From Arenibacter sp. P308M17 (GTDB taxonomy: Bacteria; Bacteroidota; Bacteroidia; Flavobacteriales; Flavobacteriaceae), in the NCBI RefSeq assembly GCF_003426735.1, contig NZ_QVON01000006.1, positions 186,001 to 250,000 of the forward strand: a stretch of 64,000 bases of DNA. The letters are read 5' to 3'. This document shows positions 35,105-40,393 of this stretch, piece by piece. The position numbers were made by a program, and so were the translations under genes. Each line of letters begins with the position of its first letter. Positions within the stretch are counted from its first letter, which is position 1. Below the pieces are notes generated by a model. It made no database searches and was not told the origin of the DNA. It was given only the letters and a program-made list of their open reading frames with translations.

Positions 35105-35417
35105 ATGTAAATAAGTGAAATCTATTTTTAATCCCATTAAATGGGTATAATTTCCTGATGTCCATATCGAAATGGATGCGGTTTTGTTTGCTTGGATACC
35201 AAGAGGTGGCCGATTTGTTATTTGGATGGAATAAAAGGTCTTTGATATTGATGATGTTGGTAGCTCGATTTTGTTCTTCGTAATTCGTAAAAATATACGG
35301 ATTTAAAGGGTTAATCGGTATTATTTTTTGCTTTAGACTGAAATAAATAAAAAAATGTACGCGTAAATGCCGAATTATAAATTTAATTATTAATTTAGCC
35401 GGAGTTTTACAAGAAAA

Positions 35418-35489
35418 ATGACAAAGCAATATTTTTGGAACGGTTTTTATTTTTACTTCTTTTTTAAGGGAGGTATGGGACTGTTCTAG
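35418..35489 (+). CDS. pheL: Phe/Tyr-rich leader peptide of the aromatic amino acid operon
   Basis: A 23-residue frame, ATG 35418 to TAG 35489, with an extreme composition: seven Phe, three Tyr and one Trp. Ten of these eleven aromatic residues fall in residues 5-16 (YFWNGFYFYFFF). It lies 140 bp upstream of pheA and is followed 23 bp later by a terminator hairpin. This is the classic layout of ribosome-mediated attenuation, where scarcity of charged tRNA-Phe or tRNA-Tyr stalls the ribosome and prevents termination. The gene name is used by analogy with E. coli pheL; the peptides are not homologous. A candidate -7 element TAATTTAG (one mismatch) at 35391-35398 would put transcription start near 35404. 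The opposite-strand 135-codon frame covering this area has no family. Confidence 0.82.
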   Translation: MTKQYFWNGFYFYFFFKGGMGLF

Positions 35490-35545
35490 CATATTATGAA
35501 ATATATATAGATAAAAGTCCTGTGAAAACCAGGACTTTTTTTTTG
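35477..35545 (+). promoter_or_regulatory. Transcription attenuator of the pheA operon (antiterminator and terminator)
   Basis: The terminator is a 10-bp stem, AAAAGTCCTG (35513-35522) with CAGGACTTTT (35530-35539), then more T. Its 5' arm can instead pair with GGGACTGTT at 35477-35485, inside the last codons of the leader peptide. A ribosome stalled at the Phe/Tyr run (ending 35465) would leave that segment free to pair and prevent termination. A ribosome that reaches the stop codon at 35487-35489 would cover it, so the terminator would form. Pairings were read by eye; relative stabilities were not computed. Confidence 0.78.
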
Positions 35546-35628
35546 GATATAACTTTCGAAAAGAACCAAAGGATAAAACTTAAACAGTTTCTAAGTCTTT
35601 GACAGGTCGGAAGATAATTTTTAAAAGG

Positions 35629-36459
35629 GTGAAATTAAAAATTGCAATACAGGGTATAAAAGGTTCCAACCACCATCAAGTGGCGATGGATTATTTTGGC
35701 GATGATGTTACATTCGTGGAATGTTCATCCTTCGATATTTTGGTAGATCACTTGATCAATAAAACAGCGGATAAGGGGGTGATGGCCATAGAAAATTCCA
35801 TTGCCGGATCCATTATACCCAACTACGCCCTGGTCTTTCACAATAACCTTCATATTATTGGGGAGCAGTATTTAAATATACATCATAACCTCATGGCTTT
35901 AAAGGGGCAGACCATTAACGATATTCTGGAGGTGCGTTCCCATCCCATGGCCCTGCTTCAGTGTAATGAGTTTTTTAAAAATTATAGACACATTAGACTA
36001 GTGGAAGATGTGGATACTGCCGAGACGGCAAAAAGAATTCAGGAAAATCAATTGAAGGGAATAGCTGCCATTGCGCCAAAAGTGGCTGCCGAGCTTTACG
36101 GTTTGGACATTATACACTCGGAAATACAGACTATAAAGGATAATGCTACCCGGTTCATAATCGTTAAGACAAAAAATAGTGTCCTGCCGGAGGAGGAGAT
36201 CAATAAGGCGTCGGTACGCTTCATTACGGACCACAAACGCGGAAGTCTTGCTGCCATATTGAATGTGATGAGCGATTGCAACTTGAACCTTACCAAGATC
36301 CAATCCCTTCCGGTAATACAGACACCTTGGAAGTATTCCTTTTTCGTTGATGTAACTTTTGAAAAGTACAAGCATTTTTCAAAGGCCAAGGCCTTGTTGG
36401 AAATTATGTCCGAAGAGTTTAAAGTATTGGGAGAATATAAAAATGCCAGAATATTATGA
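35629..36459 (+). CDS. pheA: Prephenate dehydratase with ACT domain
   Basis: A 276-residue enzyme that converts prephenate to phenylpyruvate, the phenylalanine branch. The dehydratase domain (about residues 1-178) begins KLKIAIQGIKGSNHHQVA and ends with the catalytic Thr-Arg-Phe motif in NATRFIIV. The ACT domain (about 190-275, starting VRFITDHKRGSLAAILNVM) gives feedback control by Phe. There is no chorismate mutase domain here; that activity is fused to the DAHP synthase three genes downstream. The start is taken as GTG 35629; a TTG at 35599 is less likely. The stop overlaps the next gene by four bases. Expression is probably governed by the attenuator just upstream. Confidence 0.93.
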   Translation: MKLKIAIQGIKGSNHHQVAMDYFGDDVTFVECSSFDILVDHLINKTADKGVMAIENSIAGSIIPNYALVFHNNLHIIGEQYLNIHHNLMALKGQTINDILEVRSHPMALLQCNEFFKNYRHIRLVEDVDTAETAKRIQENQLKGIAAIAPKVAAELYGLDIIHSEIQTIKDNATRFIIVKTKNSVLPEEEINKASVRFITDHKRGSLAAILNVMSDCNLNLTKIQSLPVIQTPWKYSFFVDVTFEKYKHFSKAKALLEIMSEEFKVLGEYKNARIL

Positions 36460-37598
36460 TAGCGGCAAATAGATTAAATACCGTTGAAGAGTACTACTTT
36501 TCTAAAAAACTAAGGGAAGTTAGGGGGTTAATGGCAGAAGGAAGGCCTATTATAAATATGGGTATCGGAAGTCCGGATCTGGAGCCGTCCATTGAGGTGC
36601 TGCGTGCGGTAAAAGAGGCTATGGGCCACGATGGGGCACATCAATACCAGAGTTATCAGGGCCTGCCCGAGCTAAGGGAGGCGTTTTCATCCTTTTATAA
36701 AAATAAATTTGGTGTAAGGGTAAATCCCCAGAATGAAGTATTGCCCTTGATGGGGTCCAAGGAAGGTATTATGCACATAAGTCTGGCCTTTTTGAACCCC
36801 GGGGATGAGGTGTTGATTCCCAACCCCGGGTACCCCACATACACATCGGTTACCAATTTGGTAGGGGCGGTACCACGGTATTATGATTTGGTTGGAAAGA
36901 AAGGTTGGTTTCCCGATTTGGAAGAATTGAGGGGACAGGACCTTTCAAAAGTGAAGTTGATGTGGACCAGCTACCCGCATATGCCGACCGGTGCCACGGC
37001 GAGTAGGGAACAAATGACAGATCTTGTAGCCTTTGCACAGGAAAACGATATTTTATTGGTCAATGACAATCCCTATAGTTTTGTGCTGAACCAAAATCCG
37101 ATCAGTATTTTGGAGGTGAGGGGGGCCATGGACGTTGCTTTGGAATTAAATTCGTTGAGCAAGACTTTTAATATGGCGGGTTGGCGCGTTGGGATGGTAC
37201 TGGGTAACAGTGAGCATATCAATGCTGTTTTAAAGGTAAAGAGCAATATGGATTCCGGGATGTTCTATGGTATCCAAAAAGGGGCCATAGCCGCCCTGAA
37301 CTGTAGCGAATCATGGTACAGTGAATTAAACAAGGTGTATCATGAACGAAGGGAATTGATGTTCGCATTGGCCGATACCCTTAAATGTACCTATGATAAG
37401 AATGCTGTGGGGATGTTCGTTTGGGCCAAATTACCAAAGGGGGTTTCGTCTTCCGAAAAGTTTATTGACGAAGTACTTTATGAAAAGAATATTTTCATTA
37501 CCCCCGGAACTATTTTTGGTGCCAACGGGGAGGGGTATATTCGTTTTTCCTTATGTGTCCCCGCAGAAAGGATACAAGAAGCGATCAGTAGGTTTTAA
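36456..37598 (+). CDS. Class I/II aminotransferase, probable aromatic amino acid or prephenate aminotransferase
   Basis: A 380-residue PLP enzyme of fold type I. The PLP lysine is in LNSLSKTFNMAGWRVG (about residues 225-240), and NPGYPTYTS and NDNPYSF are the usual cofactor-contact segments. Substrate cannot be read from sequence. Its place between pheA and tyrA suggests it transaminates phenylpyruvate and 4-hydroxyphenylpyruvate (final steps to Phe and Tyr) or prephenate itself. ATG overlaps the pheA stop by four bases. A 109-bp gap follows before tyrA, holding only an unconvincing 17-codon frame. Confidence 0.85.
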   Translation: MIAANRLNTVEEYYFSKKLREVRGLMAEGRPIINMGIGSPDLEPSIEVLRAVKEAMGHDGAHQYQSYQGLPELREAFSSFYKNKFGVRVNPQNEVLPLMGSKEGIMHISLAFLNPGDEVLIPNPGYPTYTSVTNLVGAVPRYYDLVGKKGWFPDLEELRGQDLSKVKLMWTSYPHMPTGATASREQMTDLVAFAQENDILLVNDNPYSFVLNQNPISILEVRGAMDVALELNSLSKTFNMAGWRVGMVLGNSEHINAVLKVKSNMDSGMFYGIQKGAIAALNCSESWYSELNKVYHERRELMFALADTLKCTYDKNAVGMFVWAKLPKGVSSSEKFIDEVLYEKNIFITPGTIFGANGEGYIRFSLCVPAERIQEAISRF

Positions 37599-37707: not shown

Positions 37708-38568
37708 ATGAATGTATTTGTAATCGGTATCGGATTAATCGGGGGGTCTCTGGCCAAGGATATTAAGCGCAATAGGCCGGAATCCAAAATTTATGGCATT
37801 GATACCAATGAGGCACATTTGGATGAAGCGATGTCATTATCTTTGATCGATGGGAAGGCAGATTATGAACAACTGAAGCAGGCCGATGTTGTAATAGTGG
37901 GTATTCCCGTAGATGTTATGGTACAGGAACTGCCCAAGATTTTGGATGCCATTGATGATGATGCCGTTGTTTTTGATGTGGGATCTACAAAGTCACTTAT
38001 CTGCAATGTTGTGGAAAACCACCCCAGGAGAAGAAATTTCTTGGCCTGCCACCCTATTGCGGGAACCGAATTTTCAGGTCCCTCAGCGGCCGTGGAAGGT
38101 TTGTTTATGGGGAAGACCAATATTATTTGCGAAATAGAAAAAACGGCCTTTAAATTGCAGGAAAAAGCTTTGGAGCTCTTTCAGCAATTGGGGATGCGGA
38201 TACGTTATATGAATCCGGAGGCACACGATAAGCACATTGCCTACGTTTCACATTTGTCACATATCAGTTCCTTTATGTTGGGAAAGACGGTTATTGAGAA
38301 AGAAAGGAATGAACGTGATATTTTTGACATGGCGGGAAGTGGTTTTGAAAGTACAGTGCGATTGGCAAAGAGCTCACCTGCCATGTGGACCCCTATTTTT
38401 AGGCAAAACAAGGAAAATGTGGTCGAAACCTTGGGGGAATATATACAAAATTTGAAGGAATTTAAAGCCATGCTGATAGCCGATGATTATGAAGGTATCT
38501 ATAAGGAAATGAACAGTACAAATAAAATAAAGGAAATATTGAACGGAATACCACTTAACAAAAAATAG
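37708..38568 (+). CDS. tyrA: Prephenate dehydrogenase
   Basis: A 286-residue NAD-dependent enzyme that oxidatively decarboxylates prephenate to 4-hydroxyphenylpyruvate for tyrosine. The Rossmann motif GIGLIGGSLA is at residues 7-16, and the Asp at the end of strand 2 (YGIDTNE) predicts NAD rather than NADP. HPIAGTEFSGP (about residues 112-122) is the conserved substrate-binding histidine region. No ACT or chorismate mutase domain is fused. It lies nine bases before the DAHP synthase gene. Confidence 0.93.
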   Translation: MNVFVIGIGLIGGSLAKDIKRNRPESKIYGIDTNEAHLDEAMSLSLIDGKADYEQLKQADVVIVGIPVDVMVQELPKILDAIDDDAVVFDVGSTKSLICNVVENHPRRRNFLACHPIAGTEFSGPSAAVEGLFMGKTNIICEIEKTAFKLQEKALELFQQLGMRIRYMNPEAHDKHIAYVSHLSHISSFMLGKTVIEKERNERDIFDMAGSGFESTVRLAKSSPAMWTPIFRQNKENVVETLGEYIQNLKEFKAMLIADDYEGIYKEMNSTNKIKEILNGIPLNKK

Positions 38569-38577
38569 AGTATAGAA

Positions 38578-39660
38578 ATGGAAAATTTAAAAGAAATGAG
38601 AACTTGGTTGGACGATATGAAATTGGACCATCCGTTAGTAATTGCCGGACCTTGCAGTGCGGAAACAGAGGAACAGGTGCTTCGTATAGCAAATGAGTTA
38701 AAGGATACCGATGTTAATTACTATCGTGCAGGTATCTGGAAACCAAGAACACGTCCCGGAATGTTTGAAGGGGTAGGGGCGCTAGGTCTAAAGTGGTTAC
38801 AAAAAGTAAAGGCGGAAACTGGTATGAAAACCTGTACCGAGGTAGCCAATGCGGCCCACGTAAAATTAGCATTGGAGCATGATATTGATCTATTGTGGGT
38901 CGGTGCAAGATCTACCGTTAGTCCGTTTATCATGCAGGAAATTGCGGATGCCCTAGCGGGAACCGATAAAATTGTTTTGGTAAAGAACCCGGTAAATCCG
39001 GATTTGGCCTTATGGCTTGGAGGAATTGAAAGGTTATATACGGCCGGTATAAAAAATTTAGGTGCCATACATAGGGGTTTCTCCACCTATGAAAAAACAA
39101 AATATAGAAACATTCCAGAATGGCAGTTGGCGATCGAGTTTCAAAATAAATTTCCCGATCTGCCTTTGATCAATGATCCATCGCATATAACAGGGAACAG
39201 GGAAATGATTTTTGATGTTTCACAAACTGCCCTGGACCTTAATTTTGATGGTCTTATGATAGAGACACATTACGATCCGGATAACGCATGGAGTGATGCA
39301 GCGCAACAGGTAACCCCTGCCAAATTGATCCAGATTATGAGGGATTTGAAAATTAGGAAGGAGACCGATTCCGAGGCGGAGTACAATAACAAGCTTAGTA
39401 ACTTAAGGGCGCAGATAGATGTGCTGGATAGCCAGTTGATCGAAATGCTCGGCAAAAGAATGAAGATTTCCGATGGGATAGGCTTATTGAAGAAGCAAAA
39501 GAATGTTGCCGTTCTGCAATCCAATAGGTGGAACCAGATTTTAGGGGCCATGATCCTGGAAGGGGAGGCCAAAGGATTGAGTGAGGAATTTGTGTTGAAA
39601 ATGTTCAAGGCCATTCACCAAGAATCCATAAATCACCAGGAGAAGATAATCAACGCATAA
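38578..39660 (+). CDS. Bifunctional DAHP synthase / chorismate mutase
   Basis: A 360-residue fusion joining the first step of the shikimate pathway to the branch-point step. Residues ~15-265 form a type I-beta DAHP synthase barrel (VIAGPCSAETEEQV, KPRTRPGMFEGVG, NDPSHITGNR). Residues ~275-358 are an AroQ chorismate mutase helix bundle starting LRAQIDVLDSQLIEMLGKRM. In characterised enzymes of this layout the mutase domain also conveys prephenate feedback to the synthase. Here the C-terminal mutase orientation fits the Bacteroidota/Porphyromonas type. It is last in the operon and followed by a terminator. Confidence 0.93.
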   Translation: MENLKEMRTWLDDMKLDHPLVIAGPCSAETEEQVLRIANELKDTDVNYYRAGIWKPRTRPGMFEGVGALGLKWLQKVKAETGMKTCTEVANAAHVKLALEHDIDLLWVGARSTVSPFIMQEIADALAGTDKIVLVKNPVNPDLALWLGGIERLYTAGIKNLGAIHRGFSTYEKTKYRNIPEWQLAIEFQNKFPDLPLINDPSHITGNREMIFDVSQTALDLNFDGLMIETHYDPDNAWSDAAQQVTPAKLIQIMRDLKIRKETDSEAEYNNKLSNLRAQIDVLDSQLIEMLGKRMKISDGIGLLKKQKNVAVLQSNRWNQILGAMILEGEAKGLSEEFVLKMFKAIHQESINHQEKIINA

Positions 39661-39835: not shown

Positions 39836-40393
39836 ATGAGCAGAAACTACAAATTTCTTAATACGAAAGGAGTGTATTTTGTATCCTTTGCCACAGTATA
39901 TTGGATGGACGTGTTTACTAGGCCATTGTATATGGTTGTCCTTGAAGAAAGCCTGCAATATTGCAGAAAGGAAAAAGGGATGGAATTGTATGCTTATTGT
40001 TTTATGCCCAACCATATTCATTTAATTTTTCGCTCTGCCAATGAAGACCCTTCGGGAGTTTTGCGCGATTTCAAAAAATATACATCCAAAAAGTTGGTAA
40101 AGGCCATTAATGATCATCTAGGGGAAAGTAGAAAGGAATGGTTGCTTTGGATGTTTGAACGAGCGGGCAAAAAGAAAGGCAATGTTTCAAGGTACCAATT
40201 CTGGCAACATCACAACAAACCCATTGAACTGTGGAGCACGGCCGTGATAAAACAAAAATTGGACTATATACATAACAATCCAGTCAAGGCAGGTTTTGTA
40301 AGCCGTCCGGAAGATTGGAAATATTCGAGTGCCCGGAATTATCAGGATGACCATACCGTTATGGAAATTGATACTATTGGTTTTTTGGGCTAG
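39836..40393 (+). CDS. REP-associated tyrosine transposase (RAYT, Y1_Tnp family)
   Basis: A 185-residue single-strand nuclease-like protein of the TnpA_REP group. The HUH motif is H60-I-H62 in FMPNHIHLIF. The catalytic Tyr is probably Y144 in KLDYIHNNPVKAG, followed by the family-typical WKYSSARNY. RAYTs are thought to have spread REP palindromes through bacterial genomes and are usually stably held, single-copy genes. REP-like hairpins flank the gene on both sides, which supports the call. The 28-bp spacing to the upstream palindrome is typical of such loci. The gene is intact. Confidence 0.92.
   Translation: MSRNYKFLNTKGVYFVSFATVYWMDVFTRPLYMVVLEESLQYCRKEKGMELYAYCFMPNHIHLIFRSANEDPSGVLRDFKKYTSKKLVKAINDHLGESRKEWLLWMFERAGKKKGNVSRYQFWQHHNKPIELWSTAVIKQKLDYIHNNPVKAGFVSRPEDWKYSSARNYQDDHTVMEIDTIGFLG

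Follow-up and report, generated by a model that had tools for sequence, protein, structure and literature searches.

The pheL leader of Escherichia coli is a proven attenuator that works with phenylalanine, and in the thrL and ilvL leaders one peptide reads more than one amino acid. The element described here, located before pheA of Arenibacter sp. P308M17, is like enterobacterial pheL (Rfam family RF01859, Phe_leader) in its short Phe-rich peptide, its alternative 2:3 and 3:4 hairpins and the gene that it precedes, and like thrL and ilvL in having codons for more than one amino acid, although those leaders concern other amino acids and operons. The pheL peptide is devoid of Tyr, whereas the Arenibacter leader contains three; likewise, tyrA of E. 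coli is convergent with pheA and outside its operon, whereas tyrA of Arenibacter lies inside the pheA operon. The RF01859 covariance model scored 18.0 bits here (E 1.3), below its gathering score of 55. The same genome carries a Bacteroid-trp leader (RF01692) at L253:1501-1617 (MKNMVSNTWWWSNLRKTS, 54.2 bits), a leader-peptide attenuator of the same phylum but with Trp codons; RF01692 (gathering score 49 bits) had no match at the pheA leader in 35330-35640, even at E values up to 10. A His leader (MKNNRTHHHHFFTCNQAS) with its own terminator precedes hisG in that genome (L254) and has a build like that of the pheA leader. Bacteroid-trp is also listed in PMC2864571.

A putative attenuator before the pheA operon of B. 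thetaiotaomicron was reported in 2005 in Table 7 of PMC1173090, taken from a prediction website; it is a table entry, the operon content is as here, and the term 'leader peptide' is absent from the main text. In F. psychrophilum, a structured 5' element before pheA that is shared with other Flavobacteriaceae genera was described in 2021, together with clues to leader-peptide attenuation before amino-acid operons (PMC9723704); the available parts of that paper do not give the peptide, the codons or the pairing of the pheA element. Leader-like frames were reported in B. thetaiotaomicron generally (PMC7366714), and terms for Bacteroidota and pheA do not occur in PMC2965389. The literature searched, mostly without subscription papers, yielded no Phe/Tyr leader peptide of Bacteroidota, and this leader may be included in a survey that Lopatovskaya et al. 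published in 2010 and that PMC4833913 cites. The original prediction knew of no experimental description of this case; it is not undescribed, since the putative attenuator (PMC1173090) and the conserved 5' element (PMC9723704) had already been reported. An attenuator before pheA is not wholly new; judged from the accessible parts of these sources, what appears to be new is the explicit Phe and Tyr peptide, the competing RNA, the spacing rule and the breadth.

The window analysed is the whole stretch of 64,000 nucleotides. From sequence and modelling, the element is very probably a ribosome-mediated transcription attenuator responding jointly to charged tRNA-Phe and charged tRNA-Tyr. The leader peptide gene (MTKQYFWNGFYFYFFFKGGMGLF, 35418-35489, plus strand) has 23 codons, is conserved in relatives and abounds in codons for the amino acids that the operon makes. 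Its translation contains seven Phe, three Tyr and one Trp, exactly the frame and counts that had been predicted, and 10 of the 12 residues at codons 5-16 are aromatic. These control codons (YFWNGFYFYFFF, 35430-35465, plus strand) were assigned with the modelled capture profile. Among ATG frames of 12-45 codons on both strands of the 64-kb window, the leader is the only one with at least seven aromatic codons in 12; simulated first-order Markov strands gave 0.4 such frames per strand, and none with at least eight in 60 strands. A plain terminator behind a T-rich frame of chance origin would suit an AT-rich region such as this, but the chance of 10 aromatic residues in 12 within a 548-nt stretch of local composition was 0.00015 (20,000 simulations) and the frame recurs in 220 distinct sequences; that explanation, left with next to no probability, is refuted by the conservation. 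No NCBIfam model matched the 23-residue peptide. As a pattern for finding leaders, six consecutive Phe/Tyr codons proved useless, with 40 matches (21 + 19) in the own genome vs 76 in a backward control.

A putative promoter box resembling a -7 element (TAATTTAG, 35391-35398, plus strand) lies 27 nt 5' of the leader ATG. The corresponding motif TAnnTTnG, which resembles the -7 box of Bacteroidota, occurs in 194 of 219 elements at 10-60 nt 5' of the leader ATG, vs 38 for the reversed and 9 for the reverse-complemented sequence, and its position peaks at 26 nt. Across 220 elements the stretch just 5' of the ATG is A-rich, and a Shine-Dalgarno (SD)-like motif (AGGAG, GGAGG or GAGG) was found within 20 nt 5' of it in none.

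Four RNA segments were delimited on the plus strand. Segment 1 (35435-35447), the partner of segment 2, was taken from the MFE fold; segment 2 (GGGACTGTTCTAG, 35477-35489) from position, fold and pairing searches; segments 3 (AAAAGTCCTG, 35513-35522) and 4 (CAGGACTTTT, 35530-35539), the 5' and 3' arms of the terminator, from sequence, conservation and covariation. The 10-bp stem AAAAGTCCTG / CAGGACTTTT and a T run at 35536-35544 make up an intrinsic terminator, which lies past the leader frame and ahead of the first gene. Both the terminator and GGGACTGTT (35477-35485), the 5' strand of the antiterminator, were found where they had been predicted; GGGACTGTT starts 14 nt past the first base of the last Phe codon in the run. 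In the folding model, segment 2 is paired upstream at 0.87 before segment 3 is made. Folding of the transcript 35404-35560, which had been proposed as a check, gave -34.7 kcal/mol vs a shuffled mean of -24.1 (z -3.46), with none of 200 shuffles as good. Such structure would also be expected of a riboswitch, a T-box or a protein-bound leader with the short frame playing no part, but no Rfam family reaches its gathering score in the 64-kb window (a relaxed threshold in 35330-35640 gave 14 matches, none of them near it), and conservation is codon-specific and the spacing tied to codons, which makes a leader of that kind hardly credible here.

The gene upstream of the leader encodes an ABC ATPase on the minus strand; since it is divergent, the terminator cannot serve it. 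Downstream, Pfam identified the four genes in the predicted order, all on the plus strand: pheA (prephenate dehydratase, 35629-36459, with a presumed GTG start and an in-frame TTG at 35599), a class I/II aminotransferase (AT, 36456-37598), tyrA (prephenate dehydrogenase, 37708-38568) and a DAHP synthase (DAHPS) fused to chorismate mutase (CM, 38578-39660). The ACT domain of PheA scored 24.8 bits, slightly below the Pfam cut-off of 27. The order pheA-AT-tyrA-DAHPS is found in 79 of 80 named loci. A gene for a Y1 (IS200-like) transposase (39836-40393) lies directly past the operon.

The detector used on other genomes required only a frame in which at least five of 12 residues are aromatic and, within 110 nt, a hairpin with a T-rich tract; the tract rule was 6/8 in the main surveys and slightly laxer, 5/8, in the follow-up scans. 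It was present upstream of pheA in 234 of 252 loci (155/172 plus 79/80 named loci), representing 220 distinct sequences; because the rows are related, these locus counts are not independent events. The named loci with the element include Maribacter, Zobellia, Flavobacterium, Tenacibaculum, Polaribacter and Cellulophaga, and at the sole miss (L205) the contig begins at the gene. PheA and the leader are both present in all 18 same-genus genomes, the own one included; the PheA of Arenibacter algicola (L173) is 93% identical to that of the window. In the family of the window (f1) the element was found in 138 of 141 loci, the 141 being 112 of the 130 family genomes with PheA, 17 of the same genus and 12 further ones; the family counts 149 genomes, of which 19 are without a PheA match, and 18 of the 130 were left out. 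By the detector rule the element is absent from L129 and L148; a third locus, L099, was missed by the rule, with the terminator and the end of the frame visible at the edge of the stretch. Between the terminator of the attenuator and pheA, this locus carries a tandem array (L099:105-521) in which a 110-bp unit containing a small inverted repeat is present in 3.8 copies.

Outside the family and within the same class, frame and terminator were found in 21 of the 23 genomes for which the place of PheA was listed, a figure that includes G235 and G318 (by eye) and three with the element 3.6-3.7 kb upstream of pheA; PheA matches in G349, G177 and G258, of other families in the same class or order, were left out of the 23. 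Three loci (L061-L063) had no element in the first stretches, and their leaders were then located 3.6-3.7 kb upstream. In three genomes of family f8 (L262, L291 and L292) the leader lies 3.6-3.7 kb upstream of pheA, and the gene order of L262 is leader, DAHP synthase-chorismate mutase, aroB, aroA, pheA. L160 and L162 were missed by the rule and are present by eye. Two F/Y-rich leader frames stand in series before pheA in L160 and L286 (family f9); a terminator follows both frames in L160 (by eye), and in L286 the rule finds a hairpin for the first only. G338 has the frame and no terminator by rule, and G287 has no element within 1.0 kb upstream. Of the 32 loci examined beyond the class, five have the element in stretches of 0.5 to 3 kb upstream and 27 are without it; the five are L065, L071, L072 and L157, for which a transfer of the operon together with its leader is possible, and L171 by eye. 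In L171 an F/Y leader (MFKRYYFYYFTRARDCALSLR) and a terminator precede a DAHP synthase gene, 1.3 kb upstream of pheA. PheA of L065, L071, L072 and L157 is 44-46% identical to that of the window, and that of the other listed members of families f15, f18 and f33 only 31-35%. The comparison with relatives, which the prediction had named as a check, showed that the run of aromatic codons and the competing pairing both persist in the genus, in the family and in neighbouring families.

Phe and Tyr are both present in all 220 of the 12-codon cores, with at least three Phe and two Tyr in 219; the mean core holds 5.2 Phe, 3.1 Tyr and 0.6 Trp. Because F, Y and W count equally in the detector, a run of Phe alone would have been accepted. 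The order of F and Y varies by clade (FYFYFFF, NWFYFFF, FYFYFYFF), which fits selection on the codons rather than on a function of the peptide. The same attenuator might sense Phe alone, the Tyr codons being tolerated as near-synonyms; Phe is the commoner residue in the cores, and the E. coli pheL leader has Phe codons without Tyr. This is nevertheless improbable, as Tyr, found in every core, far exceeds the other one-base neighbours of Phe (676 Tyr vs L 8, S 97, C 3, I 13 and V 17), Phe and Tyr stand together within the six codons before the capture cut-off in 211 of 220 elements (206 and 208 at other offsets of the ribosome edge), and the operon makes both amino acids. The placement of Phe and Tyr before the edge is compatible with joint sensing, and from sequence and model together dual sensing is the presumed function. 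Trp might be sensed as well, DAHP synthase feeding all three pathways: Trp occurs in 136 of 220 cores, and in the window it is at codon 7, where modelled capture is 0.66. Against this, Trp makes up only 4% of the six codons before the cut-off and a separate Trp leader with WWW exists in the same genome, and a third sensed amino acid is very unlikely.

For the attenuator that would read both Phe and Tyr, the pairing of the RNA segments was followed through the relatives. In the terminator, four of the 10 pairs are changed on both sides, which 0 of 500 shuffles reach. Segment 2 matches arm 3 with at least six contiguous bases in 209 of 220 elements, in a zone 11-35 nt past the last aromatic codon. 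The pairing of GGGACTGTT with the 5' arm of the terminator, as predicted for the window, is retained in relatives and surpasses that with permuted arms: the score of segment 2 with its own arm 3 was 16.7 vs 12.8 with arms permuted (sd 0.18; maximum of 200: 13.2), and when each distinct arm 7-mer was represented by a single row (n = 60), 0 of 1000 permutations reached the own score. The two words vary together, as in GGGACT/AGTCCC, CGAGAC/GTCTCG, AGGATT/AATCCT and GAGGCTTT/AAAGCCTC. In the searches for segment 2, G:U pairs were scored low; otherwise T-rich matches inside the codon run arise in several Arenibacter rows. An antiterminator competing with the terminator is indicated by these searches and by the simulated ribosome positions, the test on a single alignment being weaker: in a 22-row MAFFT alignment, in which three rows are off register by eye, 65 of 500 shuffles reach the percentage paired of the 2:3 helix, 64 its covariation score and 11 its pairs changed on both sides. 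That alignment was drawn from the 68 of 220 elements with a 23-residue peptide and fitting spacing, reduced to 26 diverse rows and then to 22 by omission of L134, L152, L190 and L191.

In a search of the whole leader, the start of segment 2 lies 9-19 nt past the last aromatic codon, counted from its first base, in 208 of 220 elements (sd 1.6 nt) and in 11.7% of 2200 trials with shuffled spacers; relative to the stop codon its position has an sd of 6.6 nt and ranges from -33 to +4. In L046 and L049 the word AGGATTGTG is equally far from the codon run, and the stop codon overlaps its start in the former and lies 21 nt further on in the latter. With the spacing tied to the codon run and not to the stop, the C-terminal residues would follow the RNA pairing, and the spacing the stalled ribosome.

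Ribosome positions were simulated for the stage at which arm 4 is still to be transcribed, and the front edge of the ribosome was set 14 nt from the A-site codon; this offset is an E. coli-like assumption, and +11 and +17 move the cut-off by one codon. Mean capture of arm 3 was 0.76 with the ribosome stalled in mid-run, 0.11 with it at the stop and 0.46 when stalled with the spacer shuffled, and capture was higher for the stall than for the stop in 219 of 220 elements. The last capturing codon was at most one codon from the last aromatic codon in 207 of 220 and exactly on it in 155; among 172 shuffled spacers with any capture the numbers were 20 and 4. The same computation on E. coli pheL, the positive control, gave 0.84 through T13, 0.51 at the last Phe and 0.00 at the stop, a downstream edge at the last control codon being common to both leaders; pheL differs from the Arenibacter leader in that its capture is close to 0 at codons 1-3 and amounts to 0.14 when no ribosome is present. 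In the window, capture was 0.70 for codons 9-15 and dropped to 0.59 with the stall at codon 16 and to 0.20 with it at codon 17; it was also 0.58-0.68 for codons 1-8, and the stop codon still gave 0.36. Because of the latter two values the profile has a sharp edge on its downstream side only, and a ribosome at the stop would bring about less clean termination than on average or in E. coli. The geometry that had been predicted, with segment 2 freed by a stall and covered at the stop, was reproduced as this edge. The His leader gave 0.75 up to codon 11, then a fall, and a renewed rise to 0.45 at the stop, and the Trp leader a flat profile near 0.5 until codon 15, so that the three leaders differ in how clearly they show the sharp edge.

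At equilibrium with a stalled ribosome the terminator usually still wins (mean 0.69), and the model therefore needs kinetic capture. Only 85 of 220 elements have a codon at which the equilibrium terminator drops under 0.5, with both Phe and Tyr there in 59; in the window, stalls at codons 10-13 (F Y F Y) bring it down to 0.13-0.35. The outcome without a ribosome is ambiguous in the model: while arm 3 is still absent, segment 2 pairs upstream in 200 of 220 elements (mean 0.72, vs 0.70 in E. coli); arm 3, once present but ahead of arm 4, is captured in 176 (mean 0.65, vs 0.14 in E. coli); and for the complete leader at equilibrium the terminator is the preferred structure in 211 (mean 0.90, vs 0.96 in E. 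coli).

The computation strongly supports the attenuator reading through anatomy, conservation, terminator covariation, matching of segments 2 and 3, spacing and modelled outcomes; we infer where transcription starts, that the leader is translated, that termination takes place in vivo and how the element responds to each amino acid. RNA polymerase would start about 15 nt before the leader gene, and a ribosome would initiate on the A-rich, SD-less ATG. When Phe-tRNA or Tyr-tRNA is short, the ribosome would stall in FYFYFFF (codons 10-16) and cover segment 1; segment 2 (GGGACUGUU), left free, would capture segment 3 before segment 4 is made, and with antitermination transcription would continue into pheA-AT-tyrA-DAHPS/CM. 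When both are plentiful, the ribosome would reach the stop codon and cover segment 2, and the 3:4 hairpin would terminate transcription. A more specific version is tentative and on balance doubtful: one leader would compute 'Phe low OR Tyr low' with an SD-less start, a fixed spacing of ribosome length and no lasting protector, the antiterminator forming when the leader is not translated. An untranslated leader would then antiterminate, unlike superattenuation of the E. coli style; this last clause is weakened because without a ribosome the terminator is favoured at equilibrium in 211 of 220 elements.

The distinctive trait of this very well conserved candidate attenuator is its dual Phe/Tyr codons. 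Because the mechanism would be an ordinary one, the gain lies in breadth and precision and adds no new principle. A likely control of Phe and Tyr synthesis is named for a large group of Bacteroidota, and the peptide, the pairing and the spacing rule are usable for automatic annotation. Since the spacing tracks the last control codon and not the stop, the leader may further serve as a natural ruler for the ribosome footprint and for transcription-translation coupling in non-SD bacteria.
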